Of a DNA stretch of 64,000 bases, positions 48,937-64,000 are shown in pieces (the first letter of the stretch is position 1; every line of letters begins with the position of its first letter). Below the pieces are notes generated by a model that saw only the letters and a program-made list of their open reading frames with translations, did not search any database and was not told the origin of the DNA. The position numbers and the translations under genes are program-made. The stretch is from Halanaeroarchaeum sp. HSR-CO (GTDB taxonomy: Archaea > Halobacteriota > Halobacteria > Halobacteriales > Halobacteriaceae). The stretch is from the NCBI RefSeq assembly GCF_024972755.1, contig NZ_CP087724.1, positions 1,054,001 through 1,118,000 of the forward strand. Reading direction: 5' to 3'.

Positions 48937-49038
48937 AGTCCCGTGGTGTAGTGGCCAATCATATGGGCCTTTGGACCAGTGCGGAATTCCGTACCGGGAA
49001 GACAGCCTATGACGGCGGTTCGAATCCGCCCGGGACTA
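48937..49038 (+). tRNA. tRNA-Gln(TTG) with a 29-base intron
   Basis: Acceptor arms AGTCCCG (48937-48943) and CGGGACT (49031-49037) pair perfectly, discriminator A at 49038. The D arm is GTGT/TCAT, the T arm GGCGG-TTCGAAT-CCGCC. Anticodon loop C-T-T-T-G-G then A, anticodon TTG at 48971-48973. The intron is about 48975-49003, after the position 37 base, and removing it leaves a normal 73-base tRNA whose anticodon stem TGGGC/GCCTA pairs. A known haloarchaeal feature is an intron in this tRNA, removed by the bulge-helix-bulge endonuclease. Confidence 0.93.
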
Positions 49039-49240
49039 TAGACCTGAGGTATCGAATCCCATTTTGACCGTTCCAAGCTTCATAGCTAGGTGAAAGGAGG
49101 GCGAACTTCGTACGACCCCTTCTATTGAATGTGAGCGCGTCAGCGGGTACAGCCGCTCTTAAAATCTTTTCAGAACGACGCACAGGCGTTGTGAGTTCGT
49201 CGATTCTCTACGGTCAACTCTTTTGAGGGGACTATTCGTA

Positions 49241-49585
49241 ATGCAAGCCATGCAGGACGACGACATTGACTCTGAAAAGGTGAAACAACTTCTCACGAGA
49301 CTCCGACCTGGCGATGACATCTCCTACAAAACGACACAACGGGACGAAGCGACAGTCCGAGTAAAGAGTACATCAATTGAGGATGGCTATTATCGGATAT
49401 ATCTTGAAGGGCCCGAGGGAGGCGAATACCTCATTATGCGAGAAAAGCCAGAGGGAATGGGAAACAGTCCTGCTCCTGAAGCTTTCTGGGTAAATCCTGA
49501 GCCGAACGAAGGTAATAATCCGTATGAATTGGTCACGAGGGGTTCGGTTTTATCACTCTCAATTTTTGCTGAGCGAGAAGTATAA
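49241..49585 (+). CDS. Hypothetical protein, first gene of the island
   Basis: 114 residues from ATG 49241 (alternative ATG 49250). SEKVKQLLTRLRPGDDISYKT, then TVRVKSTSIEDGYYRIYLEGPEGGEYLIMRE resembles a small beta-barrel, possibly a nucleic-acid or ligand-binding fold. No family is recognised. Located about 200 bases downstream of the tRNA. Confidence 0.65.
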   Translation: MQAMQDDDIDSEKVKQLLTRLRPGDDISYKTTQRDEATVRVKSTSIEDGYYRIYLEGPEGGEYLIMREKPEGMGNSPAPEAFWVNPEPNEGNNPYELVTRGSVLSLSIFAEREV

Positions 49586-49747
49586 CGCCTTGTTGTCGTT
49601 CCGTCACCCTCGCTACCGAACGAGGTTTTGAAACTGTGATTTAGTAGCATATATCAACAAACTATAGACAGCAAATCTCCTCCATTTATTAGTTCACTGA
49701 AACATCTCTGAATACACTTTTTAGGGAGGTCTGTCAATTTTCTTCCT

Positions 49748-50845
49748 ATGTACGATAACGTCTCCGAATACGTTGACTCAACTGAGGAGATTTTACGTGC
49801 CGCTAATTCAGGGGGGCAACGAGGATTAACCGAACAAGCGACGTGTGAGAGTATCATAACCAGGTTCATCTCGACGCTTGGATGGGACGAAGTAGACAAA
49901 CAACGTCCATTTAAGGTCCAGATGGGAAGCCAGACGAAGGAAGTCGATTACGCTCTCTTTCTTGGAGATGAAGATGAACCCCAAGCGTTCGTTGAAGCCA
50001 AACCCGAAAAACGCCAACTTCGGGGTGAGCATCTCGAACAGTTACGGAGCTACATGCGACAAGAATGGGTGGAATGGGGTTTGCTGACGAATGGACGCCA
50101 GTATCAACTTGTTCGGCTCACACCACAAACGGATGGTGCGCCAAATTTACAGGTGCTGATTGATGTCGGGCTTGAGGGTATCTCTGAATCTTATCTACCG
50201 GACATTATGAGCAAGGGGTCAATGGAATCTGGCGAAGCCAACCAACTCGGTGATGACCTCCAGAGTCGTATGGGTGTGATTGACGTACTAAAGGATGAAC
50301 CAACTTTGATTGGCGAAGCGATAAACAGTGTAGACCTTGATAACGAAGCATCTGAGGTTGGGGAGATGCTCATTAAGACGTTAAATCAACGGCTCGTGGT
50401 TGAAGCGAAGGCGACTCATACTAGCGGGCGTCCACAAAATACGTTTTTCTCCAAAAAACGGCAGGCTCTCAATGGCGCAGAGGACACACGAGTCGTATGG
50501 ATGTCTTCTCGTCCGAATGGCATCGAATTTCTCAGAGAAAATTCCGCTTGGGGATTCGTTAAACATCCACGTCGCGACCCAGTAATGCTTGCTCTCTACG
50601 TGAGTTCTCCCGTCCAAGAAGTAAAATATGTCGGTGAAATTGAAGACGTAGTTCCGGTGAGAGAGTTTTCCGGCATCGACGACACGTTGAGGCAACAAAA
50701 TGATGGGAAGTACGTCATCACTCTTTCCGAAGTAGTTGAATTGGAGGATGCAATACCGTTCGGTGAGGGAGAGGCAACTGTTCGTGGTATGACTTACACC
50801 ACACTAGGCAAATTCAAAGAGGCAACTACGATTGATGACCTCTGA
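49748..50845 (+). CDS. PD-(D/E)xK nuclease-domain protein
   Basis: 365 residues. Residues 1-120 look like the N-terminal nuclease domain of type I restriction R subunits: ATCESIITRFISTLGWDE, EVDYALFLGDEDEPQAFVEAKPEKRQL, giving Asp67 and Glu83-x-Lys85 as the active site, then LEQLRSYMRQEWVEWGLLTNGRQYQL. The C-terminal half is unrecognised. Stand-alone proteins of this type occur as defence or anti-phage genes. Followed 12 bases later by the DUF6884-like gene, so probably co-transcribed. Confidence 0.75.
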   Translation: MYDNVSEYVDSTEEILRAANSGGQRGLTEQATCESIITRFISTLGWDEVDKQRPFKVQMGSQTKEVDYALFLGDEDEPQAFVEAKPEKRQLRGEHLEQLRSYMRQEWVEWGLLTNGRQYQLVRLTPQTDGAPNLQVLIDVGLEGISESYLPDIMSKGSMESGEANQLGDDLQSRMGVIDVLKDEPTLIGEAINSVDLDNEASEVGEMLIKTLNQRLVVEAKATHTSGRPQNTFFSKKRQALNGAEDTRVVWMSSRPNGIEFLRENSAWGFVKHPRRDPVMLALYVSSPVQEVKYVGEIEDVVPVREFSGIDDTLRQQNDGKYVITLSEVVELEDAIPFGEGEATVRGMTYTTLGKFKEATTIDDL

Positions 50846-50856
50846 GGAGTTGAAGT

Positions 50857-51285
50857 ATGACTGAAATTGGATTGGTGAGTTGCACGAAGAGGAAGCAAGA
50901 CAGGGCCACGAAGCCAGCAGACCTCTACACTGCATCGGCGTTTTTCAGGAAGGCCCGAGAATATGCCGAAGCGAATCACGAATCTTGGTACATTCTCTCT
51001 GCTAGACACCATCTCCTGGACCCTAACGGCCCACGCATTGAACCGTATGACGATACTCTGAGTGGAGCATCAGTAGACAAAAAGCGAAACTGGGCACAGA
51101 CCGTATATGACCAGCTACAAGAGAATAACTTGCTTGCCGATGGGAATCGGTTAGTGTTCCACGCCGGTCGGGACTATTACGATGAGCTGCTACCGCTCTT
51201 AGTGGATGCCCAAGTAAATGTCGAGACGCCGACAGACGGCCTGCGCTTTGGGGAAACACTCGCTTGGTATAACGAACGGATTTAG
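50857..51285 (+). CDS. DUF6884-like protein
   Basis: 142 residues starting EIGLVSCTKRKQDRA, with the early (L/V)xxC-x-x-K-x-K pattern of DUF6884, then DLYTASAFFRKAREYAE and ILSARHHLLDPNGPRIEPYDDTL, typical of this family. Related domains sit in tRNA or DNA base-modification gene groups, but the function is not established. Its stop overlaps the stop of the convergent gene. Confidence 0.7.
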   Translation: MTEIGLVSCTKRKQDRATKPADLYTASAFFRKAREYAEANHESWYILSARHHLLDPNGPRIEPYDDTLSGASVDKKRNWAQTVYDQLQENNLLADGNRLVFHAGRDYYDELLPLLVDAQVNVETPTDGLRFGETLAWYNERI

Positions 51286-51995
51286 TCGAGGTTCGGGGTA
51301 GTCTCAATGTATCTGGCGAGGGAGTCTAGGAACTCTGGCCGATACTCCTCTGAAACATGGTTGATATTCCATAGCCCGGACTCTCGGATGTCACGTACTG
51401 GACTGTAGTGACCAAGCCACTTCTCGTTCCTGGAATCGATTGATTTCCCACCGACGTTGCTCACCATCGCAATTGCGTTTCGCTCAATGTAGGCGCGGTC
51501 ACTCTCCGGGCTGGGTTCATCATCGACCCTAACCCACAGAAACGGAAGGTCACGAAGGTATTCGCTGACGCGTCGTTCCATTTCCAGTTCTTCCAATCGT
51601 AATTCACGTGCGGCGCTTGACCCGACGCCCCATTCAGGATACTCCCTCTGATGTCCGTCCCGTTCTATCAGAGCTTCCCCGATACGTTTCCTAAACACGG
51701 ACCCCCGATGATTACCTCCGTTTTCGTAGGTACCACGTTTCGCTCCTCTATGGGTTCGTAATCTGTCCCAGAGTGAGGTTCCACTACCTGCCGAAACAGC
51801 GTGGGTTCCGATTCGCGTTACCCGTAGCTGATGAGTTGACTCTCTGGTTTCACTTGGATGGAAAAAGAAGTAGACGCCTCGGTTGGGCCAGTCCATACGA
51901 CCATGGCAGTTTTTGAGCTTCCGCTTCCCACCGACTGTCTCCTCCAATTCGTCGAGCAAGGAGTAGAACTTATCGAGGTTCTCGTCTCGAATCAT
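51282..51995 (-). CDS. GIY-YIG nuclease-like protein
   Basis: 237 residues. NRGVYFFFHPSE (GVY, residues 40-42), then about 20 residues later TRIGTHAV (RIG), followed by SLWDRLRTHRGAKRG and HRGSVFRKRIGEAL match the order of a GIY-YIG fold with the catalytic Tyr and Arg regions. GIY reads GVY and YIG reads RIG, so the active site is not canonical. Could be a defence nuclease or a structural homologue. Confidence 0.55.
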   Translation of the reverse strand: MIRDENLDKFYSLLDELEETVGGKRKLKNCHGRMDWPNRGVYFFFHPSETRESTHQLRVTRIGTHAVSAGSGTSLWDRLRTHRGAKRGTYENGGNHRGSVFRKRIGEALIERDGHQREYPEWGVGSSAARELRLEELEMERRVSEYLRDLPFLWVRVDDEPSPESDRAYIERNAIAMVSNVGGKSIDSRNEKWLGHYSPVRDIRESGLWNINHVSEEYRPEFLDSLARYIETTPNLD

Positions 51996-52055
51996 TCTTG
52001 TGTTGGACTTTTTAGCCCTGGCAGGTAGTATTTTCTTTCCTGTTAGCGGGTGGCC

Positions 52056-52622
52056 TTAGAGGAGTCTTACAGCCAGTTGGATTACAAAGCCGAGAAACAG
52101 AAGGGACGCACCGATACGAAAGGTCAGGCGTTCTTTGTGCTCTTGAAGCAACCGAGGGAATTCACCTGGAGGTTTTGTCATTGCCAGATATGGACTTGAG
52201 TCTCGAATTAGGTCGATACCGGACTCATCGGCGGCTCGGGGACGGTACTTAAACCTAAATTCAGCAGTTGCGAGCGGTGCATCATCCGCTTTTTCAATGG
52301 CAATCAGATTGTATCCTTCTTTCTCAATGTGAATCTCTTCACCACCAATCTCGACGTGAATCGAGGTTTCCGGCCCTTCCTCCATTGTCTCTGCCGATTG
52401 GATAGGGGGTCCAGCAAGCTCGACTGCTGATGCCAAGTGACTAAATCCGACATCGGACCGCTCTATCTCGCCTTCCAGATACAACTGCTCCTTTGCCGTC
52501 TCTATCCGAGAAAAGGGCCTGATGTAGTCGAGGCGCGACATCAATGATGGGAGACTCGGCGCTAAAACGACGACGGCTCCGATAGCATCCAATGCCAACC
52601 CAAAAGCCATGAAGTCAATCAT
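52056..52622 (-). CDS. Membrane protein of unknown function
   Basis: 188 residues with an N-terminal hydrophobic span (ALDAIGAVVVLAPSLPSL) and a C-terminal one (ASLLFLGFVIQLAVRLL). Between them lies a beta-rich segment (TSIHVEIGGEEIHIEKEGYNLIAIEKAD, ATAEFRFKYRPRA). No family recognised. ATG 52622 or a later ATG at 52610 could start it. Confidence 0.65.
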   Translation of the reverse strand: MIDFMAFGLALDAIGAVVVLAPSLPSLMSRLDYIRPFSRIETAKEQLYLEGEIERSDVGFSHLASAVELAGPPIQSAETMEEGPETSIHVEIGGEEIHIEKEGYNLIAIEKADDAPLATAEFRFKYRPRAADESGIDLIRDSSPYLAMTKPPGEFPRLLQEHKERLTFRIGASLLFLGFVIQLAVRLL

Positions 52623-52949
52623 GAATGACTAGTTACAGTTGTTGAAGTCGGTCGTAGAACACCTCGTGGAAATGTTCTCCGGATATTACCACCTAATCGA
52701 GATAAATCTAACAGGGCGAACTCTGGCATGTGAGGACTCACAGGCGGACATTTGAAAAGCGTATCCCGCCAAAGGGTGGATTGGCTTTGGTTTGTGATAG
52801 TAACAGAAACTCGACGGGCATAAAATCGACACCGGGTAGGATTGCCTCATTCACCCCCTAAGTTGAATTTCAAAGAGGGATTTGTACCCCCTACCCGTAC
52901 GACCGCAAATTCCTTGTCATATCGGGCCTCTATTGGACATTCACTAACT
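52623..52949. other. Divergent intergenic region, nothing specific seen
   Basis: About 330 bases between divergently transcribed genes. It presumably holds both promoters. I see no credible gene, RNA or strong repeat. Confidence 0.5.
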
Positions 52950-53684
52950 ATGGACAAAGACATCAATGACGTAACTGAGGTTTTTCGCTCGGTACGTGAC
53001 CACGATTACAACGAACTCCGCAACGATATTGGTGGACTTCTCGCCCGGGTCCGAGCAATGAGTGACGCGGTTGATGACGTGAGGGAATTAGAAGATGAGA
53101 TTCAGGAGGTAGAATGGGCTCTTCTCCCACAAGGAGATGAAGAACATATGATGCGGGAGGACCTCCTCATCGATATTCTGAAGATAGTTGATGATGGGTA
53201 TCTCTCTTCAGCATGGGCTCTCCGTGAAACGCTCGAATCACTCATAATTGACCACGCACCTGAGTCGGATAGCTCCGAGTCGTTGTATGAACAATACAAA
53301 GACGATAGCCAGACAGTGATTGGTTTGAGAATATATTCCCATCACGGTAATCGGCTTCCAGTAAGAATTATCGACGATGGTTTTGGTGGCAATATCGGTA
53401 GTGGTGACGGAGTGCGGCGAAAAATTGGAGTACTCGTTGACGATGTTAGGGAAAAGAAGGGTGAAAAATATCGCCAATCTCCAGACCAATTCTATGAACA
53501 TTTAGAGCTGAACTTTATTCACCTCCCTGAGCTCATGAGGAATCATTTCGAGATGGCAGAGGTACTTGTTAATGAATTCGTTGAGGTGGTACTTCAGGAG
53601 AATTCGGAGACGGTCCAAGACTATCAGAGCGTTGGAGCAGAACTCAAGTCACTACTGGACTCCGGTGCCCACAACCGTTATTGA
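52950..53684 (+). CDS. Helical protein of unknown function
   Basis: 244 residues from ATG 52950. The N-terminal third is coiled-coil-like (ELRNDIGGLLARVRAMSDAVDDVRELEDEIQEVE), the rest helical (DLLIDILKIVDDGYLSSAWALRETLESLI). A reading frame extends upstream but without a good start context. No domain recognised. Confidence 0.65.
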   Translation: MDKDINDVTEVFRSVRDHDYNELRNDIGGLLARVRAMSDAVDDVRELEDEIQEVEWALLPQGDEEHMMREDLLIDILKIVDDGYLSSAWALRETLESLIIDHAPESDSSESLYEQYKDDSQTVIGLRIYSHHGNRLPVRIIDDGFGGNIGSGDGVRRKIGVLVDDVREKKGEKYRQSPDQFYEHLELNFIHLPELMRNHFEMAEVLVNEFVEVVLQENSETVQDYQSVGAELKSLLDSGAHNRY

Positions 53685-53895
53685 AACCTGTCGTATGTTC
53701 CCGGGTACGTCCGGAACGGCAGAATTTTGAAGTGGCACTGTGAACGGTGGCCAGTCTTAAATTCAAAATTGCTCAAATCAAATCACACCAATAACAACTT
53801 CTAGCTCCAGTGTGCTTCCCACATATACCAATTTACTGTCCCAAAATACATATCCGAAAGATATAATTTAATCCTGGGAGACGTGTGGAGCATCT

Positions 53896-54570
53896 ATGTT
53901 AGTTGTCACCACTGCATCTTCTGGAGGTAGTGGGTTTTGGGTCTCAATTTCCATATCTGTGCTTTCTGGGGTTTTCTCTTTGTTCGCGGTGGTATTGTCA
54001 TATCGGAAGTACAAAGAACAACAAAGGCAGGGGGATGAAATTGAGCGACAATCAAAAGAAATCGAACGCCAATCCAGTGCAATGGAACGAGAATTTGCGA
54101 CCGAAATAATCGCCCATGATTACGAGGCGGTTGGTAATACGATACAGGTCACACTATCAAACTATGGGAGAGGAATTGGGAAAAACCTGGAAATTGCGAC
54201 TGAGGTAATTGTAGATGGGGAAGATTGCTATACAACACCAAATTATCAACCGCTTCGTCAGATAGATGATGACACATCAATGGCTGGTCCGAATGTGATA
54301 AAAGCGGATACTTCGAAAATTGAGTATCAGGCAGACCCCGCTCTTCGCATTACTATTCCTGGAAATGAGCCAAGGAATAGTAGTTTCCCAGGTGGTTTAG
54401 AAGACCTGAAACCCCATTGCAGCGATTTCTTGGAGATTGATATGTATCTAAGAGCAGAAAACCAATTAGAAGTGAAAAATGAATATGAAGTATTTGATAG
54501 TTCTCGAACGGTTGCTATCAACGACATCGAAGAAGAATACCCCACTCTCGAATCGGTTTTACAGATGTAG
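53896..54570 (+). CDS. Membrane-anchored protein with coiled coil and beta domain (family A)
   Basis: 224 residues. One transmembrane segment near the N-terminus (FWVSISISVLSGVFSLFAVVL), then a short heptad region (DEIERQSKEIERQSSAMERE) and a cytosolic or extracytosolic beta-rich domain with QVTLSNYGRGIGKNLEIATEVIV. That motif matches VTIHCSNQGTGLAKQFEVEVEF in the membrane gene at the end of the hsdR operon. It ends 27 bases before the NERD helicase, so the two are likely co-transcribed. Function unknown. Confidence 0.75.
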   Translation: MLVVTTASSGGSGFWVSISISVLSGVFSLFAVVLSYRKYKEQQRQGDEIERQSKEIERQSSAMEREFATEIIAHDYEAVGNTIQVTLSNYGRGIGKNLEIATEVIVDGEDCYTTPNYQPLRQIDDDTSMAGPNVIKADTSKIEYQADPALRITIPGNEPRNSSFPGGLEDLKPHCSDFLEIDMYLRAENQLEVKNEYEVFDSSRTVAINDIEEEYPTLESVLQM

Positions 54571-54597
54571 GATATACAAGGCTAAAACAGAATAACC

Positions 54598-56925
54598 ATG
54601 GAATTCATCCCAACATCAATTGACAACACCTCTTCACAAGGGGCTATGGCAGAAAAATCGGTGATGGATAGACTCAAAAGAGCATTCGGCCCTGATGATA
54701 AGGGCGTAATCTATTATCGGTTCCCTGTCCGAGATAAAGCCGGAAAACGGTTCGACAAGGAACCTGATTTCACCATTTTACATCCGGATTTTGGTTTGGT
54801 TGTAGTCGAGTGTAAGGGCTATAAAATAGACCACATAGATTCAATTGAAGGTCAGCAATGGCAACTAAAGAACATTAATCAGAAACACGCTGCTCCGTAT
54901 TCACAGGCACGAGAACAGGCATTTTTCCTCAATCGCTATTTCATGGGTGAAGAGCGACTTAGAGATGACCGTGGAAATACGAAGGTGCCACTAAATTTCT
55001 TCATAGCACTTCCAAATATTTCATCTGATGAATGGGAAAACAGAGGATTTGACGGACTCCCCTCGGTACGCGCGATTTTATCTGACGAGATGGGGCAACA
55101 ATCATTGAGGGAGATATTTTTCGATACTCCCGGAAAGAGTCTATCACCCACAGAATACCAAGCGGCGAGAGCTGCTCTCAGTGGTGGGGAAGTAATTAGC
55201 GGGAAAAGGTTACCAACGAGCAATGGCGAAACAAAAGGAGAACTATACGAGGAAGTCGAATACGGGCTCAATCGTCTAGACCGTCGCCAAGAAGAAGTTG
55301 GTCTGCAAATACCAAATGGTGAGCAACAAATTCGGGGAATTGCAGGCTCTGGAAAAACGATTCTCTTAGGGATGAAAGCTGCTGCAATGCATGCCGCCCA
55401 CCCGGAATGGAAAATTGCCATTACTTTTAACACAAGAAGTTTGTATGATAATATTCGCTCTACAGTCGAGCGATTCACTCAGCACTTCACAGACCAAGAC
55501 CCAGATTGGGAACGGTTAGATGTCCTTCATGCATGGGGAGGAAAGTCAGAGCATGGCCTGTACTACAAAATCGCTCAGTCGGCAGGAATATCTCCAAACA
55601 CTGTAAATGATGCCAGGAGTAAGTTCGGTTTTGGAAGCCCAGCATATCTTTTGAATAAATCTTGCGAGGAGCTTCTCAACATAGGGGGTATCCAAGAGGA
55701 ATATGATGCAATACTCATTGATGAAGCCCAAGACCTTCGGCCTTCATTCTTTAACATGTGTCATGCTGCTTTGAAACCAGTGGGAAATGGCCAAGAACCT
55801 GACCGAAAGCGGCTGATTTGGGCATACGATGAAGCTCAAAATTTGAGTAGTTTGTCTGCACCGACTCCCAAGGAAATTTTCGGAACTGATGATGATGGAG
55901 ACCCAGTAGTTGACCTGAGGGGGTCGTACGGTGGGGGAATATTGAAAAGCCAAATCATGAGGAAAGCCTATCGCTCACCACGAGAGATATTGATGACTGC
56001 CCATGTTCTTGGAATGGGCCTTAAATCTCCAAGTGGTGCGGTTCAGGCGATTACTAGAAAGGAAAACTGGTCAGATATCGGGTACAATCTAGTCAGCGGT
56101 GACTTCCGAGAGACTGGAACTCCAATTAAAATCACTAGGCCTTTGGAGAATTCACCGCATCCGTTAGCAGAGTCGAGCAAAGCTCAGCCCTTCATGAAAT
56201 TCAAAAGTTTTGATGAAAAGTCTGAAGAAATTTCACATGTTACCGAAGCAGTCTACAATGATATTAATGACCAAGGGCTTAATCCGGAGCAAATTTTAAT
56301 CATCTGCCTTGGCTCTCCGACGAAGGCTAAAAAAATAGGCCAGAAGGTAGAAAAATCGTTGTCCAAAGAATCCATCCCCAGTAACCCTGCATGGGCGGGT
56401 AATGCTAGCGTTTTCAAAAAGGAAGGCGAGGTGACAATATCTCGAATAAACCGTGCCAAAGGGAATGAGGCAGCAATGGTTTATGTTGTGGGCCTGGAAG
56501 AAGTGGTGAATTCCGAGTGGTATGATAGCGATATTACTCCGCGAAATGAAGCATTCGTAGCCATTACTAGAACCAGAGCCTGGTGTGAGGTAACTGGAAC
56601 AGGAAATTCCCCAATATTTACTGAGATTAGGCAAATTATCGATTCAGTCAGCGAGGAAGAGCCTATTGTGGAGTTCCCCGCACCACCGAGAGATGTACAA
56701 GGTCCCTACGATGACGACACAATGGCAACTACAATTCAACAATTCACTACAGAACAGGATTCAGAGGGCAAGGAAATATCCTGCCCAGTAGATGAATGTG
56801 GGTTCAATGGAACCGTACCAACAGTCGTCCTCCATGTTAATGGAACAAGCGATTTAAATCATCAATGGCCTCAGCTGGGTTACGAAGGAGCTGCTGAATT
56901 CCGAAGAGAGCATGGGGACTTATAG
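54598..56925 (+). CDS. NERD-domain nuclease / UvrD-type helicase with C-terminal zinc finger
   Basis: 775 residues. NERD nuclease domain about 15-140, with EPDFTILHPDFGLVVVECKG (Asp57, Glu71-x-Lys73). Helicase core with Walker A IAGSGKT (about residue 245-252), Walker B LIDEAQDLRP (about 374), and UvrD-type motifs near the end (RINRAKGNEAAMVYVVG, NEAFVAITRTRAW, about 651-661). The last 50 residues contain CPVDECGFNGTVPTVVLHVNG with a following His, a C2H2-like zinc finger (about 728-760). Such nuclease-helicases are typical of phage defence or plasmid-exclusion genes. Preceded by a membrane-protein gene. Confidence 0.85.
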   Translation: MEFIPTSIDNTSSQGAMAEKSVMDRLKRAFGPDDKGVIYYRFPVRDKAGKRFDKEPDFTILHPDFGLVVVECKGYKIDHIDSIEGQQWQLKNINQKHAAPYSQAREQAFFLNRYFMGEERLRDDRGNTKVPLNFFIALPNISSDEWENRGFDGLPSVRAILSDEMGQQSLREIFFDTPGKSLSPTEYQAARAALSGGEVISGKRLPTSNGETKGELYEEVEYGLNRLDRRQEEVGLQIPNGEQQIRGIAGSGKTILLGMKAAAMHAAHPEWKIAITFNTRSLYDNIRSTVERFTQHFTDQDPDWERLDVLHAWGGKSEHGLYYKIAQSAGISPNTVNDARSKFGFGSPAYLLNKSCEELLNIGGIQEEYDAILIDEAQDLRPSFFNMCHAALKPVGNGQEPDRKRLIWAYDEAQNLSSLSAPTPKEIFGTDDDGDPVVDLRGSYGGGILKSQIMRKAYRSPREILMTAHVLGMGLKSPSGAVQAITRKENWSDIGYNLVSGDFRETGTPIKITRPLENSPHPLAESSKAQPFMKFKSFDEKSEEISHVTEAVYNDINDQGLNPEQILIICLGSPTKAKKIGQKVEKSLSKESIPSNPAWAGNASVFKKEGEVTISRINRAKGNEAAMVYVVGLEEVVNSEWYDSDITPRNEAFVAITRTRAWCEVTGTGNSPIFTEIRQIIDSVSEEEPIVEFPAPPRDVQGPYDDDTMATTIQQFTTEQDSEGKEISCPVDECGFNGTVPTVVLHVNGTSDLNHQWPQLGYEGAAEFRREHGDL

Positions 56926-57067
56926 GAGAGCTCAGTCGGGTAGTTAACACTATCCGATGTTCCACAATTGCACGTAGTATACTGGGGATTGACTGGTGAT
57001 TCTCCGTGCTTGAAGATGTATTTGTTAGAGGGAAACTATTACTATACTTCCATATACATTCTGAATT

Positions 57068-57688
57068 ATGTCTCGAAAATTGAGGGAGAACGACAGAAAG
57101 GGCTTACTTGAGATTGAACGCAAAAATGGAGATTTGGTAGCGAAAAATGTTCCCATTCAAGGGGAAACTGTCTGTATAATCAATTCGGGAGAAATTGCAG
57201 AGAGTGGGGACGTTTCAACGACGGTCCCGGTAAATGTCGGAAAATTCAGACAGGGAATAGGAGACAACACCAACTATCTTACAGTCGATTTGTTGGACGA
57301 CGATGGGCAACATTTGTCAGACATTTCGAGCCTCTTCACCCCTTCCAATGAGGACGATGATGTTAGAGAGTCTAGGGGAATGCCTGAAAGAGAAACGCGG
57401 AAGTTGACACAAATTCGGGGAACGGGAGACTACATTAATGTAAAGGCAAAAATATTCTATATAGAATATGTAGAAAAAGATAGGCTAGATATGCCGGACA
57501 TAAAAGGCGTGTTAGTTGAAGATAAATCAACCAAACAGGTACCCTTTGTGGTAAATAAAGATGTTTTACACCCCTACTTCGAACAGGGCGAATATTATTT
57601 CTTCAAAAACGTCAAAGACCATAGATACGAGAAAGGAAATGAGAATCAGATTCTAATTTCAGAGAAGTCAACGGTTGAGAAGTTATAA
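57068..57688 (+). CDS. Putative OB-fold protein
   Basis: 206 residues. The C-terminal half (KLTQIRGTGDYINVKAKIFYIEYVE, IKGVLVEDKSTKQVPFVVNKDVLHPYFEQGEYYFFKNVKDHRYEKGNENQILISE) has the strand pattern and length of an RPA-like OB fold; the N-terminal half is also strand-rich. It lies 142 bases after the NERD helicase, on the same strand. Single-stranded DNA binding is a reasonable inference. Confidence 0.6.
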   Translation: MSRKLRENDRKGLLEIERKNGDLVAKNVPIQGETVCIINSGEIAESGDVSTTVPVNVGKFRQGIGDNTNYLTVDLLDDDGQHLSDISSLFTPSNEDDDVRESRGMPERETRKLTQIRGTGDYINVKAKIFYIEYVEKDRLDMPDIKGVLVEDKSTKQVPFVVNKDVLHPYFEQGEYYFFKNVKDHRYEKGNENQILISEKSTVEKL

Positions 57689-57827
57689 CGAACTTCACGA
57701 CACCTGCGAAAGACCGAACCGGCAGAATTGGAATACAAGTCGCATGGGAGTCATGGCCAACACCACAGCATAAATTCCTTCTACAATATGATAAGTTATT
57801 TATATTACGTTTTTCGTGGGTTCGATT

Positions 57828-58082
57828 ATGGAAGAAAATAATTCCGACAGTAAGCAATCGTTCCCGAAAGCACATTCAGATGTCTGGACTACTGTTCTCG
57901 TAGCCCTAGCAAAACGAGATGAACAATTGGAGTTAGACGATATTTCTGTAGTAACTGGGATTTCCCAATCAAAGGTCCGGGAGGTCGTTGAAGCTATGGA
58001 AAAGAATGAATGGGTTCAGTGGAATGAGGAACATCAGGAGGCTATTGAGCCTGGACAGAAGATGGATGAGAATATTATCTAG
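57828..58082 (+). CDS. Small winged-helix-like protein
   Basis: 84 residues from ATG 57828. DVWTTVLVALAKRDEQLELDDISVVTGISQSKVREVVEAMEKNEWVQW is a winged helix with the recognition helix SQSKVREVVEAM. It could be a regulator of the neighbouring defence genes. Confidence 0.65.
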   Translation: MEENNSDSKQSFPKAHSDVWTTVLVALAKRDEQLELDDISVVTGISQSKVREVVEAMEKNEWVQWNEEHQEAIEPGQKMDENII

Positions 58083-58238
58083 TCTATAGCATGCAACATG
58101 CCAAGATTTAAATTAATAATTTCGTATATGTATTTGTGAGAACAAACAATCTCCGACTTGGCTTAAGACTATACTCAACTAAAGGTATCAGAAGCAGCGA
58201 ACAAACAACGGTCCCTGTATGCTGTGTGATTTTCGAAA

Positions 58239-59006
58239 ATGCTTCGTCAAAGCAAGTACAATCCAAAAGTCAGCATTCCAATTGTCGCGGAAGAATATAT
58301 GCGGGCTACCGGATTCATAGTCGATGTTGATGGTCACCGATATCTCGTAACAGCAAGACATAATGTATTTCCAACCCAAGTTAACATTCCAAATCCGCGA
58401 ACGGGAGGTTCATACCTTAGGTACAATGCGGACTTCCAAGCAAACATTCTAGACGTATATTTCCCACATGGGGGAGACTGGTCCCATCACCGAATCCAAC
58501 TGAGCAACCTCCCTCCCCATAAAATAATCACCACGCCTGAATCAGACCTACTAGCTGTACAATTGCCCCAAAACATAGAGATTCACGATGCTACCTCGTT
58601 TACTCCTGAAGATATCCAGACGGATGTTGAGCCGAATGAATCCCTTGTCGCATATGGATATGGGCAAAATTCACTTCCCGATGAGAGTATAGACTATACC
58701 GTGTCAGAGTACCCATATGAAATTAAGACTCCTCAAGAATTAACACTATCGGCGGTCCCCCTCCCAGCAGATGGCTTTGATTCGATTAGCAATGTCATAG
58801 GTACTGCTATCGATGAGGAGAGTAGTTCGGCCTATCTATACAATGGATTAAGTGGTTCTCCCGTCCTTGGGGATGGACTAGTCGGAATATATACAAGTTC
58901 ATCTGAATTCCCTGAGGAAGTCGGTAACGCGAATCCTAGTCTAGTGGGTACAACCCGTGTCGATTACGTTTCTTCAAATTTGATTTCAACCGCACTCCGT
59001 CTTTGA
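58239..59006 (+). CDS. Trypsin-like serine protease
   Basis: 255 residues. The catalytic triad is readable: His41 in YLVTARHNVF, Asp103 in ESDLLAVQL, and Ser205 in NGLSGSPVL. The fold matches trypsin-like (peptidase S1/HtrA-type) domains without PDZ. No signal peptide, so it acts in the cytoplasm, which fits proteases used as effectors in defence systems. Last of the helicase, OB-fold, winged-helix, protease series. Confidence 0.78.
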   Translation: MLRQSKYNPKVSIPIVAEEYMRATGFIVDVDGHRYLVTARHNVFPTQVNIPNPRTGGSYLRYNADFQANILDVYFPHGGDWSHHRIQLSNLPPHKIITTPESDLLAVQLPQNIEIHDATSFTPEDIQTDVEPNESLVAYGYGQNSLPDESIDYTVSEYPYEIKTPQELTLSAVPLPADGFDSISNVIGTAIDEESSSAYLYNGLSGSPVLGDGLVGIYTSSSEFPEEVGNANPSLVGTTRVDYVSSNLISTALRL

Positions 59007-59216
59007 CCTCTTGGGTCGTTCTGGAAAATTGCTTCTTACAACGTCTGAACAACCAATATTGTCAGCTGATGTCTTAGATTCACGAGTGCATACCTCTTCC
59101 CCCACTGGCGATTTAATCTCCACGGCAATGTGAATCGACATCACTTCCGGACATAATTCGGTCTTGTTTTCACAAGTGGTAATGGATACATCGATGACCA
59201 TCTCATCTCGGTTCAT
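58986..59216 (-). CDS. Possible small protein, antisense end of the protease gene
   Basis: 76 residues from ATG 59216, with an A/T-rich stretch just upstream. It overlaps the protease 3' end by 21 bases. Three or four cysteines are present (TTCENKTELCPEV, NIGCSD). No family is recognised and it may be spurious. Confidence 0.35.
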   Translation of the reverse strand: MNRDEMVIDVSITTCENKTELCPEVMSIHIAVEIKSPVGEEVCTRESKTSADNIGCSDVVRSNFPERPKRSKTECG

Positions 59217-59238
59217 GTATTTTTAATCTTATGTACCC

Positions 59239-59820
59239 CTATTGGTTTCCTGACCTTCTACTTTCAATGCGGTCTTTTGCCTCCTCTACAAAGGAGTCCA
59301 AGTCAACACCCGTCTCCAAAAGTGCAAGCTGGTTTCCGCCAATAATGAACTCAGTCTCTTTGAACCAATTCAAAGTATTTGTCTTGAGAGCATCTTGTCT
59401 ATCCTCAAGTTCCTTTAACCTGCCATTGAGCTCTGCAATCTCTGGATTGTGAGAAATAACGTCGACCCTCGATTCTAACCTGTCGATGCGATTTTTCAGA
59501 TTTTGAATTGCTTCAGAATCTACTTTGTTTTTAGCCTTCGAAAATTTGCTATCAACCAATCCCCATTCAATTTCTCTTTTTGCATCTCCCGTCAGACGTG
59601 CTACTTTTGGAGGGTCGCGGTCTCCGTAACCTTGCTCAGCGTACGATATTTCGATTAAACCGAGAGATTCTAACCGGTCGAATCGGTACTTGACTTCAGG
59701 TCTAGTCAGCCCAGTTTGCCTCCGAATTTCGGTCGTTGAGGCCGAACCGCCAAAATCCCTCACTGCCCGCAAGAACCTCATTGCTTTCTCATCAATTTGA
59801 TGGCGAAATTTTGTGCCCAT
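59239..59820 (-). CDS. Winged-helix protein with coiled coil
   Basis: 193 residues from ATG 59820. The N-terminus is a winged helix (KAMRFLRAVRDFGGSASTTEIRRQTGLTRPEVKYRFDRLESLGLIEI), followed by a coiled coil (AIQNLKNRIDRLESRVDVIS, ELNGRLKELEDRQD). Likely a dimeric DNA-binding regulator of the island. Upstream ATG options exist, but this one matches the domain start. Confidence 0.75.
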   Translation of the reverse strand: MGTKFRHQIDEKAMRFLRAVRDFGGSASTTEIRRQTGLTRPEVKYRFDRLESLGLIEISYAEQGYGDRDPPKVARLTGDAKREIEWGLVDSKFSKAKNKVDSEAIQNLKNRIDRLESRVDVISHNPEIAELNGRLKELEDRQDALKTNTLNWFKETEFIIGGNQLALLETGVDLDSFVEEAKDRIESRRSGNQ

Positions 59821-60604
59821 AGTCAAAATTATGATATTATAGTGCAAAAGTATTACCCCCACTGAACCCCGCATTAACCAGTAAAGAGGGCCGACCGATT
59901 ACAACGGGTATTCAATCCCTCCAATTTTTGATAACGACCCAATTGAGCCATCACCCCCTTCAATTAGTCATCCAGACGGCGAGCGACGATAATCAGAGCC
60001 AAGACCCCATTAGGCGGGACAATGATTTCACTAATTGATGGCCTCCCGGATATCACGATGTCGAAAATCGATGGTGACCCCAGGCTCAAATTTAACTCCG
60101 AGATTCATAAACTACTCTTATGGTCAGTTACAGAACCGCCGACATCCTTAGAATATCCACTATTTTCCCTTGTTAACCATGGCACCATCCTCAATGAGTT
60201 CGGGCCGACGACCGTGACGACGAAAGACCGAGGGACTGTGGGTGCGGTCCCTCGATGGAAGACGAACCTTGCTCGCCGAGCTGCAGAGACGGCTTCGAAT
60301 CACCGAACCCTAACACGTCGGGGACAACGATTGAGTCACTCAAACCCTCAGGTGACTCTCAACGGTTCTGGAACAGGGGACATCTGCGACCGGGCAATTG
60401 GGGTATCCGAACCGGGGACTTAGCCATCCAGCCCGCCAACTACTAAGGCACCGACGGTTGGGTCATTCGACGTGTGTGGGGTTTGGACTGAATGCACTAC
60501 AATCGGCTTCACGACCGACGTTGCAGGCGGGGTGGTTGCCAAGGCAGCCTACTGGTCGGGGTGACTCGTCTCTGTGAAGGTTATCGACCGGAAGTGAAAC
60601 TGTT
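59821..60604. other. Gene-poor region with inverted repeats
   Basis: No open frame here is convincing: short plus-strand frames (for example 60022-60423) have no family character. Two inverted repeats stand out. CGAGGGAC (60229-60236) pairs with GTCCCTCG (60247-60254), and TTGAGTCACTCAA (60331-60343) is nearly palindromic, with GAGTCA paired also by TGACTC at 60353-60358. The region could be regulatory, a small RNA or the remains of decayed genes. Confidence 0.45.
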
Positions 60605-61678
60605 CTAGAGGTAAGAGTAGTGCCCTGTTCGGTGAACTTTCTCACCATTTCGTAATGAGAGGTTCCCTTCATCATCGAATGAAGGCTGTTTGTGAGTGAG
60701 AATCGTTCTATTCTCTGCGTCCTCAAACAGTTCTTCCACACTTCCCCCGTCTCGAATATCAAACCATCCCGTGGCCAATGACCTGTCTGCTACTTGATTA
60801 TCGAATATGTCCTTATACGAGATGGTGATACTGAATCCAAGCGTTTTGACCCCTTTGTCGCCCAATTCTTCGATTCCTTTGCTAAAGGAAAACCGGCTCT
60901 GGCGTTCCCCTCCGGGGTCTACGTATCGCTCAAAATAGAGTGAGAATTTTAAGTCTTGGTCATCACCCTCCCAAAGAATCTCTTCTGTACGTGTTTGCGG
61001 TAGGTCTTCTTCAGCACCCACCCTCTTTGGGGTGGTAGCACCGCCTGCGTAGTTAGCGCGGAATGTCACTTCACCTCGCGGTGTATCCTGTTGGGTGCTT
61101 GTGAACACTTTGTCAGACAGCGGCTCCAACTTTACGCCCATATCATAATGAGCGGGGCCATCCATCGCCTCTTCACCTACGTAGAACTCCACCTCAACTT
61201 CAAACTGCTTGGCGAGGCCTGTTCCTTGGTTTGAACAGTGGATAGTGACTGAATCTTCAGAGACATCTGATACCGAAATATCGACAGCAGGAATATACTC
61301 TGCCTCCATTATCTCCTGTTGGCGTTCTTGAATCGAAGTCTGTTCTTTACTGATTGAGGTTTGCTCTTCTGCTATGGATGTTTGCTCCTCGCTAATGTCT
61401 CTCTGGTCTTCCAAGACTCTCGTCTGACGAAGATATATCCATATCAAACCGCCTGTCAGGATACTATTCAGGATAAGTGAGACAACGGAAAGTGAGATAT
61501 TCCCGGCTTCACTTGGGCTTGCATTCGGGAAAATGGAATTGACCGCAGAATCAGTAAGGACACCTATTGCGAGCAGTGTTAATCCCACTAGCACAAACCC
61601 AACGAGTGAAAAAATAACAGCTAGCAGTACTCCCTTCTCTATACTTTTTATACGTTCACGTATACTAAGCCGACTCAT
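60605..61678 (-). CDS. Membrane protein with heptad repeat and beta domain (family B)
   Basis: 357 residues. Two transmembrane segments (GVLLAVIFSLVGFVLVGLTLLAIG and SLSVVSLILNSILTGGLIWIY), then seven-residue repeats (SEEQTSI, AEEQTSI, SKEQTSI) forming a coiled coil, and a beta-rich domain with VTIHCSNQGTGLAKQFEVEVEF, similar to the motif of the membrane gene before the NERD helicase. The start overlaps the metallopeptidase stop by four bases (ATGA), so it is translationally coupled to the type I restriction operon. Confidence 0.78.
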   Translation of the reverse strand: MSRLSIRERIKSIEKGVLLAVIFSLVGFVLVGLTLLAIGVLTDSAVNSIFPNASPSEAGNISLSVVSLILNSILTGGLIWIYLRQTRVLEDQRDISEEQTSIAEEQTSISKEQTSIQERQQEIMEAEYIPAVDISVSDVSEDSVTIHCSNQGTGLAKQFEVEVEFYVGEEAMDGPAHYDMGVKLEPLSDKVFTSTQQDTPRGEVTFRANYAGGATTPKRVGAEEDLPQTRTEEILWEGDDQDLKFSLYFERYVDPGGERQSRFSFSKGIEELGDKGVKTLGFSITISYKDIFDNQVADRSLATGWFDIRDGGSVEELFEDAENRTILTHKQPSFDDEGNLSLRNGEKVHRTGHYSYL

Positions 61679-62397
61679 AGGTCAGATTCTGTGAAAATAA
61701 GTCGAGAGCTATGTTTCTCAAGCCACTCTGCCTTCTCCTTGTAGTCAGGAATGTGTTCCCCGACTAACTGCCAGAACTCTCGACCGTGGTGCTGTTCGGT
61801 CAGGTGGGCGAGTTCGTGAACAACGAGATAGTCAACAACCTCGGGCGGGGCCATAATGAGCCGCCAGTTCAGGCTAATCGTTCCACTGGTTGAGCAACTT
61901 CCCCACCGTGTACGCTGGTTTCGGAGTTCGAGTTTCTCGTACTCGACACCCATACGCTCGGCGTAGTGGTCGGTGCGGTCGGTAAGATAGTCTCGCGCCC
62001 GGCTTCGGTAGAAATTTTCGAGAGCTTGCTTGACCGTCGATTGCTCAACGGCGCTCTTCCGGAGCCGAATCGAATCCTCGTCTACCTCGTGCTTTCGGCG
62101 GGATTCTATGACGAGTTCTCGGTCTTGCCCGAGGAACGGGAAGCACGCACCCGCCTCGAAAGTTCGGTCGGGGACTTGCTCGCGGTAAGTGTCGTACTTT
62201 CGTTGCTGGTCTACTACCCACGCCGCGTTTTCTTTCAGCAACCTCATCGGACGAACATCCTCGGACTCAGGAACGACAACCGTCACGCCGTGAATATCTA
62301 CGTCAATTCGGGCTTCGGTGGCGTCGTAGCTGTGGCGTACCTCGTACTCGATTGGGTTCCCCAACAGGTCGATTTTCCGAGGTTGTGTTTTAGCCAT
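61675..62397 (-). CDS. YgjP-type (DUF45) zinc metallopeptidase
   Basis: 240 residues from ATG 62397. The SprT/YgjP-like metalloprotease motif is VVHELAHLTEQHHGREFW (HExxH plus a further His) around residue 193, after a beta domain with IDVDIHGVTVVVPES and RTRWGSCSTSGTISLNWRL. Such proteins are commonly encoded beside type I restriction subunits, here overlapping the end of hsdR by eight bases. Role unknown. Confidence 0.88.
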   Translation of the reverse strand: MAKTQPRKIDLLGNPIEYEVRHSYDATEARIDVDIHGVTVVVPESEDVRPMRLLKENAAWVVDQQRKYDTYREQVPDRTFEAGACFPFLGQDRELVIESRRKHEVDEDSIRLRKSAVEQSTVKQALENFYRSRARDYLTDRTDHYAERMGVEYEKLELRNQRTRWGSCSTSGTISLNWRLIMAPPEVVDYLVVHELAHLTEQHHGREFWQLVGEHIPDYKEKAEWLEKHSSRLIFTESDL

Positions 62398-64000
62398 TGT
62401 TCGCAATGAGGTAGTTCCGAATCGCGTCTACGAAGTCTTCGTCGTCCTTAATCAAGTGCCCGATGTCGTACTGTTTGACCAGCACGTCCAGCAGGATTCG
62501 CTCGATTTCTGCGATGGCCTCTTGGTTCGTCTTCCACCCGTGATATCCTCGGTCAACGCGGTCGCGGAACTGTGAGACGATTTCTTTGGCCACTTCTTCG
62601 GCCTGTTCTTTGGAGTTGATTGCCTCGGTCGTCTCTTCGGTCAGATGGGTGTAAATAGCGAACTCGGCGGCTTCCATCCCCTTCTCGTCGGCCTCGGCTT
62701 CCACCTCCAGAATCTCTTCCTCGACGGCTTTGAGGGCTTCAACTGCCTCGGGGTCGCCTATTCCGTCTCCCTGCCAGCGTTCCACTATGTCCGTCACGCG
62801 CTCGCTCAAACGCCTGTAGCGGGGGTTCTGGTTCTCCCGAGGGTGTAGGTGTTCACGGGTTGCGTGCGCAATCTGTGACGCCTTCACGCCGGGGTTGTCC
62901 AGCCCTTCCACGTCTTCGAGGTATTCTTCACCGAGTTTGTACGTCGGAAAGTCTCGCTTGATTTCCCCGATTTCGACGTTCTCGCTGATTATCTCACGGG
63001 TCTTTTCCTGCATGTTTTCTTCGGGGTCATCGTCCCCGGACGTGGTTCGTTTGAACGCGACGTGAACCCGACTCAACCACTTGTATTCGTCTTCGATACC
63101 ATCCTGAATGAGCCGTTTGTCGGGCGCGACAGCCTCGTACAGCGATTGGAGTCGCCGGAAGCCCTGTTTGAACTGGCGGCGTTCGGGGTGGGTACTGACG
63201 CGTTCCACAGCCTCGTAGGCGGCTTCTTGGGTGTCGTTCTTCGGTATTCCCTCGAAAATTCCCATGACCGTTCCCAACTGGTCTTTTAGGTCGTCGTAGA
63301 GTTCGCTCTTGTCGCGGGCGGCATAGGATTTCGTCTCGTCGTCATAGTCCAGTGCCTCGTCAATGTTTTCGAAAACGCCTTGGAAATCTACTATCTCGCC
63401 GTTCTTCTTGCCCTCGTCAGGCCGATTTGTCCGGGCGATAGCCTGCATGAGGGTGTGGTTCTTGAGGTTCCGGTCGAGGTAGATGGTCTTCAGAATCGGG
63501 GCGTCGAAGCCGGTCAACAGCATGTTGTGGACGACCAGTAGTTTCGGGTTCTCGTCCTCTTTGAACGACTTGATGATACTGTCGCGCTCGTCAGGGTCGG
63601 TATGGAACTGTTGAATCAGCTCGGGGTCGTCGTTGGTCGTGGTGTAGAGAACTTCCACCTCGTCTTCGCCGCGACGGTCGATTAGTCGCTCGCCGTACAT
63701 AGCCCCTGACCGACGACTCGGTGTGACGACCATTCCCTTCCAGCCGTTCGGGGAAACGTGGTCGGTATAGTGCTGGTCGATTTCCTCGACTGTCCTGTCC
63801 ACACGGGGTTCGATTTCTGCGAGGGTCGTCGTGTTGACGGCTTCGCGGATGAACTCGCGCTTCTCGTCTTTGGTGAAGCTCCGAAACTCTTGGTCGAACT
63901 CCTCGTCAAGTCCGGCCTCGTCTATACGCCATTCCATCTCGTGCCGGAGCGTGAAGTAGACGGGCAGAATCAGGCCGTCCTCGATACCTTCCTTGACCGT
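62390..64000 (-). CDS. hsdR: Type I restriction enzyme R subunit (HsdR), C-terminal part
   Basis: At least 536 residues; open through the right edge, where TVKEGIEDGLILPVYFTLRHE continues upstream in frame. Shows the second helicase domain (NGWKGMVVTPSRRSGAMYGERL, LVVHNMLLTGFDAPILKTIYLD, LMQAIARTNRPD) and the long helical C-terminal domain. It cleaves unmodified DNA with the HsdM/HsdS subunits. Neither HsdM nor HsdS is in the window. Confidence 0.93.
   Translation of the reverse strand, partial: TVKEGIEDGLILPVYFTLRHEMEWRIDEAGLDEEFDQEFRSFTKDEKREFIREAVNTTTLAEIEPRVDRTVEEIDQHYTDHVSPNGWKGMVVTPSRRSGAMYGERLIDRRGEDEVEVLYTTTNDDPELIQQFHTDPDERDSIIKSFKEDENPKLLVVHNMLLTGFDAPILKTIYLDRNLKNHTLMQAIARTNRPDEGKKNGEIVDFQGVFENIDEALDYDDETKSYAARDKSELYDDLKDQLGTVMGIFEGIPKNDTQEAAYEAVERVSTHPERRQFKQGFRRLQSLYEAVAPDKRLIQDGIEDEYKWLSRVHVAFKRTTSGDDDPEENMQEKTREIISENVEIGEIKRDFPTYKLGEEYLEDVEGLDNPGVKASQIAHATREHLHPRENQNPRYRRLSERVTDIVERWQGDGIGDPEAVEALKAVEEEILEVEAEADEKGMEAAEFAIYTHLTEETTEAINSKEQAEEVAKEIVSQFRDRVDRGYHGWKTNQEAIAEIERILLDVLVKQYDIGHLIKDDEDFVDAIRNYLIANNG

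Follow-up and report, generated by a model that had tools for sequence, protein, structure and literature searches.

We describe here a gene pair of Halanaeroarchaeum sp. HSR-CO, encoding a membrane protein and a NERD nuclease-helicase, that is probably a real and convergent, membrane-partnered variant of the Helicase-DUF2290 kind. By analogy with known systems we tentatively lean to the view that an integrative element carries the pair as an accessory module, most likely for DNA surveillance by a nuclease-helicase that is held at the membrane. Coordinates refer to the window, the whole stretch of 64,000 nucleotides that was analysed, unless another locus is named.

Results

The membrane protein gene (53896-54570, 224 aa) and the helicase gene (54598-56925, 775 aa) both lie on the + strand and are separated by 27 bases. 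A check of the open reading frames confirmed both genes and their spacing as given in a preliminary description of this DNA, and the helicase start is backed by homologues that open with M(E/K)FI/V... The gap between the two genes is too short to hold a promoter, so that one for the helicase would have to lie inside the membrane protein gene; both are hence likely carried on one transcript. A TATA-like TTTAAT (53867-53872, + strand) precedes the first start codon (ATG) by 23 bases, a position weakly compatible with a leaderless archaeal transcript; the pattern occurs three times in the window versus 1.4 expected, a weak and not significant over-representation.

The larger protein (54598-56925, + strand) combines a NERD nuclease, an SF1 UvrD-type helicase and a C-terminal zinc finger, as judged by Pfam, PADLOC and alignment. 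The PD-(D/E)XK-type NERD domain (54640-54951, + strand; residues 15-118) retains D57, E71 and K73, matches PF08378 with E 1e-9 (39.3 bits versus a cut-off of 22.1) and has the features of a family member. Pfam matches to the UvrD-type pieces stay below the cut-off, while the Walker A motif IRGIAGSGKTIL (55330-55365, + strand; residues 245-256, with K253), DEAQD (375-379) and the remaining SF1 motifs are intact, and the PADLOC 'Helicase' model PDLC03002 is matched at 3e-116 over residues 203-693. The zinc finger that the preliminary description had placed at the C-terminus was confirmed by alignment as a CCHH pattern, C729-x4-C734-x11-H746-x8-H755 (56782-56862, + strand), which among 44 aligned helicases is confined to that of the window; there is no Pfam match at its position. 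A module of the form CPxxxCxxxGxxxxVxxHVxGxxDxxHxWxxLGY is found, sometimes in tandem, in many unrelated haloarchaeal DNA-related proteins (L211-L228), and it appears common to proteins that we read from their sequences as Mre11-like phosphoesterases and primase-type proteins. The structure model of the helicase is mediocre (mean pLDDT 61.6). Its best Foldseek matches are human Schlafen-11/14 (E 3e-13), with TM-scores near 0.24, and a cross-check by sequence recovered only PcrA; we read the Schlafen likeness as the shared SF1 core and no further.

The smaller protein (53896-54570, + strand) consists of a transmembrane (TM) segment, a coiled coil and a beta-rich domain with an SNxGxGxxxNL motif. 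Its single hydrophobic segment (residues 16-34) is followed by RKYKEQQR, and the coiled coil extends to about residue 66, with a continuous helix over residues 20-66 in a single-sequence AF2 model that is unreliable and unusable beyond the helix (pLDDT < 50). By the positive-inside rule the C-terminal domain is predicted to be cytosolic, a topology in which it would be able to reach the cytosolic helicase. No Pfam family was matched above its cut-off and no PADLOC or PHROGs model was matched; the archaellum stator ArlF of NCBIfam gave E 0.002 (18.3 bits versus a cut-off of 110). The protein appears to belong to a broad haloarchaeal TM-coiled-coil-beta family for which we found no name. A 16-sequence profile of this family (A3) gives hits in 26 of 117 genomes searched within the order, a count that includes the genomes which supplied its members, and it matches the window protein, itself part of the profile, at 2.5e-63; a single-sequence search recovered matches of 2e-10 to 7e-4 in 18 other genomes. 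In family members, one or two TM segments are combined with a coiled coil and an SNxGxGxA-motif domain, and the C-terminal part is predicted cytosolic by charge in 32 of 42. Two such genes occur in the genome itself, 53896-54570 and 60605-61678. The latter (- strand) overlaps by 4 bases a YgjP metallopeptidase gene that lies downstream of HsdR; a 51% identical relative (L167) is likewise accompanied by a YgjP-like gene and HsdR, both no more than a few kb away, although the orientation differs.

The preliminary description had compared the pair to abortive-infection systems. A helicase that senses invader DNA and a membrane protein that depolarises or breaks the membrane would indeed resemble known layouts of sensor plus membrane effector. 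We find no sign of abortive infection or of a membrane effector beyond this analogy, and consider the proposal very improbable: one TM segment (two in the plasmid pairs described below) joined to a folded domain by a long coiled coil resembles a tether or adaptor more than a pore, the membrane family occurs alone in many genomes, and the window helicase has a nuclease domain of its own.

Both genes lie on a mobile island. At 49.0 kb of the window the GC content falls from about 61% to 41-56%, next to an intron-bearing tRNA gene (48937-49038, + strand; anticodon TTG, Gln, as read by eye) whose 3' end forms the left attachment site. The 20-bp repeat TCGAATCCGCCCGGGACTAT (49020-49039, + strand) marks the left end of the element, and a second copy is found at L206:11345 (window coordinate about 75244), beside a gene that we read as a tyrosine integrase. 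The element thus spans window positions 49020-64000 and L206:1-11364, about 26.2 kb. In a genome of the same genus (G101), a single other gene separates the tRNA gene from the right-flank transporter genes, and the island is missing; the tRNA gene there seems to have no intron. Repeats, integrase and absence from this relative together indicate that the element of about 26.2 kb is mobile and integrated in the tRNA gene. It carries a type I restriction-modification system, with HsdR identified by Pfam and PADLOC, and HsdM and HsdS genes assigned by eye. Also on the island are a resolvase-like gene, a trypsin-like protease (58239-59006, + strand) with a weak match to LmuA of Lamassu, and, near the left end, a stand-alone HsdR N-terminal-type nuclease (49748-50845, + strand). 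A DUF6884 protein is encoded on the island (50857-51285, + strand) and also just downstream of the Natribaculum plasmid pair introduced below (L083:7147-7575). The gene at 57068-57688 was considered as a third component and rejected, as it is not found beside the other pairs; the genome contains a single paralogue of it at another place, and among 99 genomes hardly any relatives turned up.

Homologues of the helicase, mostly 45-56% identical, occur in about 25 of 293 sampled genomes of the order, roughly a tenth; most other rows of this order-wide search match the zinc finger only. More distant homologues are found in cyanobacteria, Deinococcus and many bacterial plasmids. Searches for the pair covered samples of about 290-390 genomes, and viral contigs (IMG/VR) and phage genomes contained no relatives of either protein. 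A membrane gene lies directly upstream on the same strand in three of the 41 haloarchaeal helicase loci inspected: the window, the Natribaculum luteum plasmid NZ_CP095399 (spacing 57 bases) and the Haloferax gibbonsii plasmid pHG3, NZ_CP011950 (spacing 59 bases). Gene order, strand and short spacing are alike in all three, all three are on mobile DNA (two plasmids and one integrated element), and the plasmid pairs belong to haloarchaeal families other than that of the window. The plasmid pairs are 82.7% identical to each other in the helicase and 74.5% in the membrane protein; their helicase shares 35% identity with that of the window and matches PDLC03002 at 4e-96. Their partners have two TM segments versus one in the window, and the cytosolic domains of the two lineages are homologous (hhalign 98%, E 8e-14, with the window protein contained in profile A8). 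In both plasmid pairs (L083:8349-10583 and L086:7845-10076) the ExK of NERD is lost (MNIVD and MHIVD) and the helicase motifs are intact. Nuclease activity is therefore not a shared mechanism; should all the pairs have one mode of action, its common core would be the helicase plus the tether, and cutting would be optional.

These results leave the proposed two-gene unit with a mixed balance: the spacing and the same layout on two plasmids argue for it, but the genes are apart in the other 38 of the 41 loci, in which the helicase is mostly a solo gene. The window pair could be chance neighbors in a gene-rich island, a captured DNA-repair-type NERD helicase next to an independent membrane protein that serves another purpose. 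Most of the helicases stand alone, and several of these adjoin thrS/pyrE in related genera, or thrS in Natrialbaceae, a placement that looks vertical and housekeeping-like rather than defensive. That solo orthologues are common and kept beside thrS points to an ordinary function of the helicase in DNA maintenance and is the strongest counter-argument to our reading. Moreover, the membrane family occurs in mixed contexts with many unrelated neighbors, and the pairs do not form one clade. In the helicase tree the window protein sits with solo genes of chromosomes (99/99), and the plasmid pair forms a long branch of its own; a constraint that unites the three pair helicases comes at a cost of 9.9 log units (AU p 0.039). 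The membrane-protein tree, poorly resolved, does not join the pairs either. A single origin for all three pairs is therefore disfavoured, not firmly given the long branches, and two recruitments seem likelier than one, the alternative being repeated loss. What argues against chance is a second lineage in which the genes have the same order and strand and are again closely spaced, an arrangement kept on two plasmids from different families. A rough Poisson estimate, which treats loci as independent although they are not fully so, gives 0.002 for a second adjacency besides the window and 0.05 even if both families are concentrated 30-fold in the same DNA. Under this rough model the two families adjoin each other more often than chance would give, and we regard chance neighbors as a rather unlikely explanation, if the most serious of the rivals.

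Discussion

We favor, tentatively, a DNA-surveillance module anchored at the membrane. The SF1 motor would load on exposed or replicating foreign DNA of a virus or plasmid, the zinc finger would add DNA affinity, and the NERD domain would cut the strand exposed by the motor. With its predicted cytosolic part, the coiled coil and beta domain, the membrane protein may bind the helicase and thereby keep it near the envelope, hold it back until it has engaged DNA, or do both; it would replace DUF2290 as partner without kinship to it. Supporting this module are the operon-like spacing of 27 bases, the recurrence in a second lineage, the joint divergence of the plasmid partners, the type I restriction-modification genes and integrase on the island, the PDLC03002 homology, the predicted C-in topology, the homology of the partners' cytosolic domains, the T7 inhibition by a DUF2290-paired homologue and the part that PA1372 plays in the cost of a foreign plasmid (both below). 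Against it stand the 38 of 41 loci without the membrane gene, the loss of the NERD motif in the plasmid pairs, trees that do not unite the pairs, the lack of clear defense enrichment beside the membrane family and the poor model of the membrane domain. Helicases of the Helicase-DUF2290 type are little understood, and a DUF2290 partner swapped, probably twice, for a membrane protein suggests that the partner localizes or regulates the helicase rather than contributing catalysis. To our knowledge, membrane recruitment of DNA-processing enzymes in archaeal defense would be new.

Some members of the membrane family adjoin other helicases or nucleases, namely a PLD-SNF2 helicase (L194), a DpdJ-like helicase (L202) and an Mrr nuclease (L189). 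It is tempting to speculate that, together with the NERD-helicases of the window and the two plasmids, these neighbors point to TM-coiled-coil-beta proteins as interchangeable membrane adaptors that recruit varied DNA-attacking enzymes to the envelope in archaeal immunity. If true, the family would be a previously undescribed anchoring layer of archaeal immunity, although we hold this generalization to be doubtful. No clear enrichment of defense genes (PADLOC) was seen when direct neighbors of the family were compared with distant genes of the same loci, in a small survey that used its own gene caller and listed top families only.

A different role on the mobile element also has to be considered. 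The pair might serve the element's own DNA rather than host defense, in replication, partition, membrane transfer or inter-element competition. All three pairs reside on plasmids or an integrated element, the zinc-finger module is common to primase-type and Mre11-like proteins, and a cyanobacterial plasmid homologue adjoins parAB. In Pseudomonas PAO1, PA1372/PA1371 have been assigned to Helicase-DUF2290, PA1372 being the helicase gene (PMC11637435), and mutations that inactivate PA1372 abolish the cost of plasmid pNUK73 via lowered expression of rep (PMC4410645). However, the element also bears restriction genes, no recognizable replication or transfer gene adjoins the pair, and a homologue paired with DUF2290 inhibits phage T7 (Rousset et al., 2022; PMC9122126). 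We therefore judge a role in the element's own DNA to be unlikely, less so than an abortive-infection effector.

Comparison with known systems places the pair, read as a membrane-held surveillance module, close to one of them. NERD and/or UvrD-type parts are common to Nhi, Gabija GajB, PADLOC C3a187 'NERD+UvrD' and the DRT NERD-helicase, but these matches are far weaker than that to PDLC03002 (C3a187 1.9e-22, RTasNERD-Hel 8e-12, GajB 4e-9, Nhi 1.6e-5, the last over a short motif-region stretch). Neither GajA (OLD ATPase-TOPRIM) nor a reverse transcriptase was found among the neighboring proteins scanned, and on these matches the pair fits neither Gabija nor Nhi. On the membrane side, the TM-coiled-coil-beta family bears a weak likeness to the stator ArlF/FlaF, whose beta domain lies outside the cell, whereas the window family is predicted to be C-in. 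The solo haloarchaeal NERD-helicases ('nuclease-related domain-containing DEAD/DEAH box helicase') share 45-56% identity, the same NERD plus SF1 architecture and, in those compared, intact catalytic residues with the window protein, but they have neither membrane gene nor zinc-finger tail, and several occupy conserved chromosomal neighborhoods. The closest likeness is to Helicase-DUF2290 (Rst_HelicaseDUF2290; PADLOC PDLC03002 + PDLC02998), with a homologous helicase, two genes and a location on mobile elements. The claim of an undescribed system thus has to be withdrawn for the helicase, whose family is already known: three plasmid homologues examined, from E. coli, Exiguobacterium and Lactococcus, have DUF2290 directly downstream (Rousset et al., 2022), and these DUF2290-linked helicases match the same PDLC03002 model. 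The partner there is DUF2290 and downstream, whereas the partner in the window is upstream and an unrelated membrane protein; a DUF2290 domain hidden in it was ruled out (hhalign probability 0.0). A search for DUF2290 (PF10053) found none in the genome itself, in 286 genomes from the order or in 14 control genomes, but it did detect the three plasmids with known DUF2290. The window pair further differs by its intact NERD, its zinc finger and its archaeal host. By its sequence the pair is thus not a member of Helicase-DUF2290, as the partner is a different protein. The role of the helicase domain in helicases of that type has been left unexplored (PMC10952713). By analogy, the pair may well function like Helicase-DUF2290, with a membrane protein in the place of its partner.
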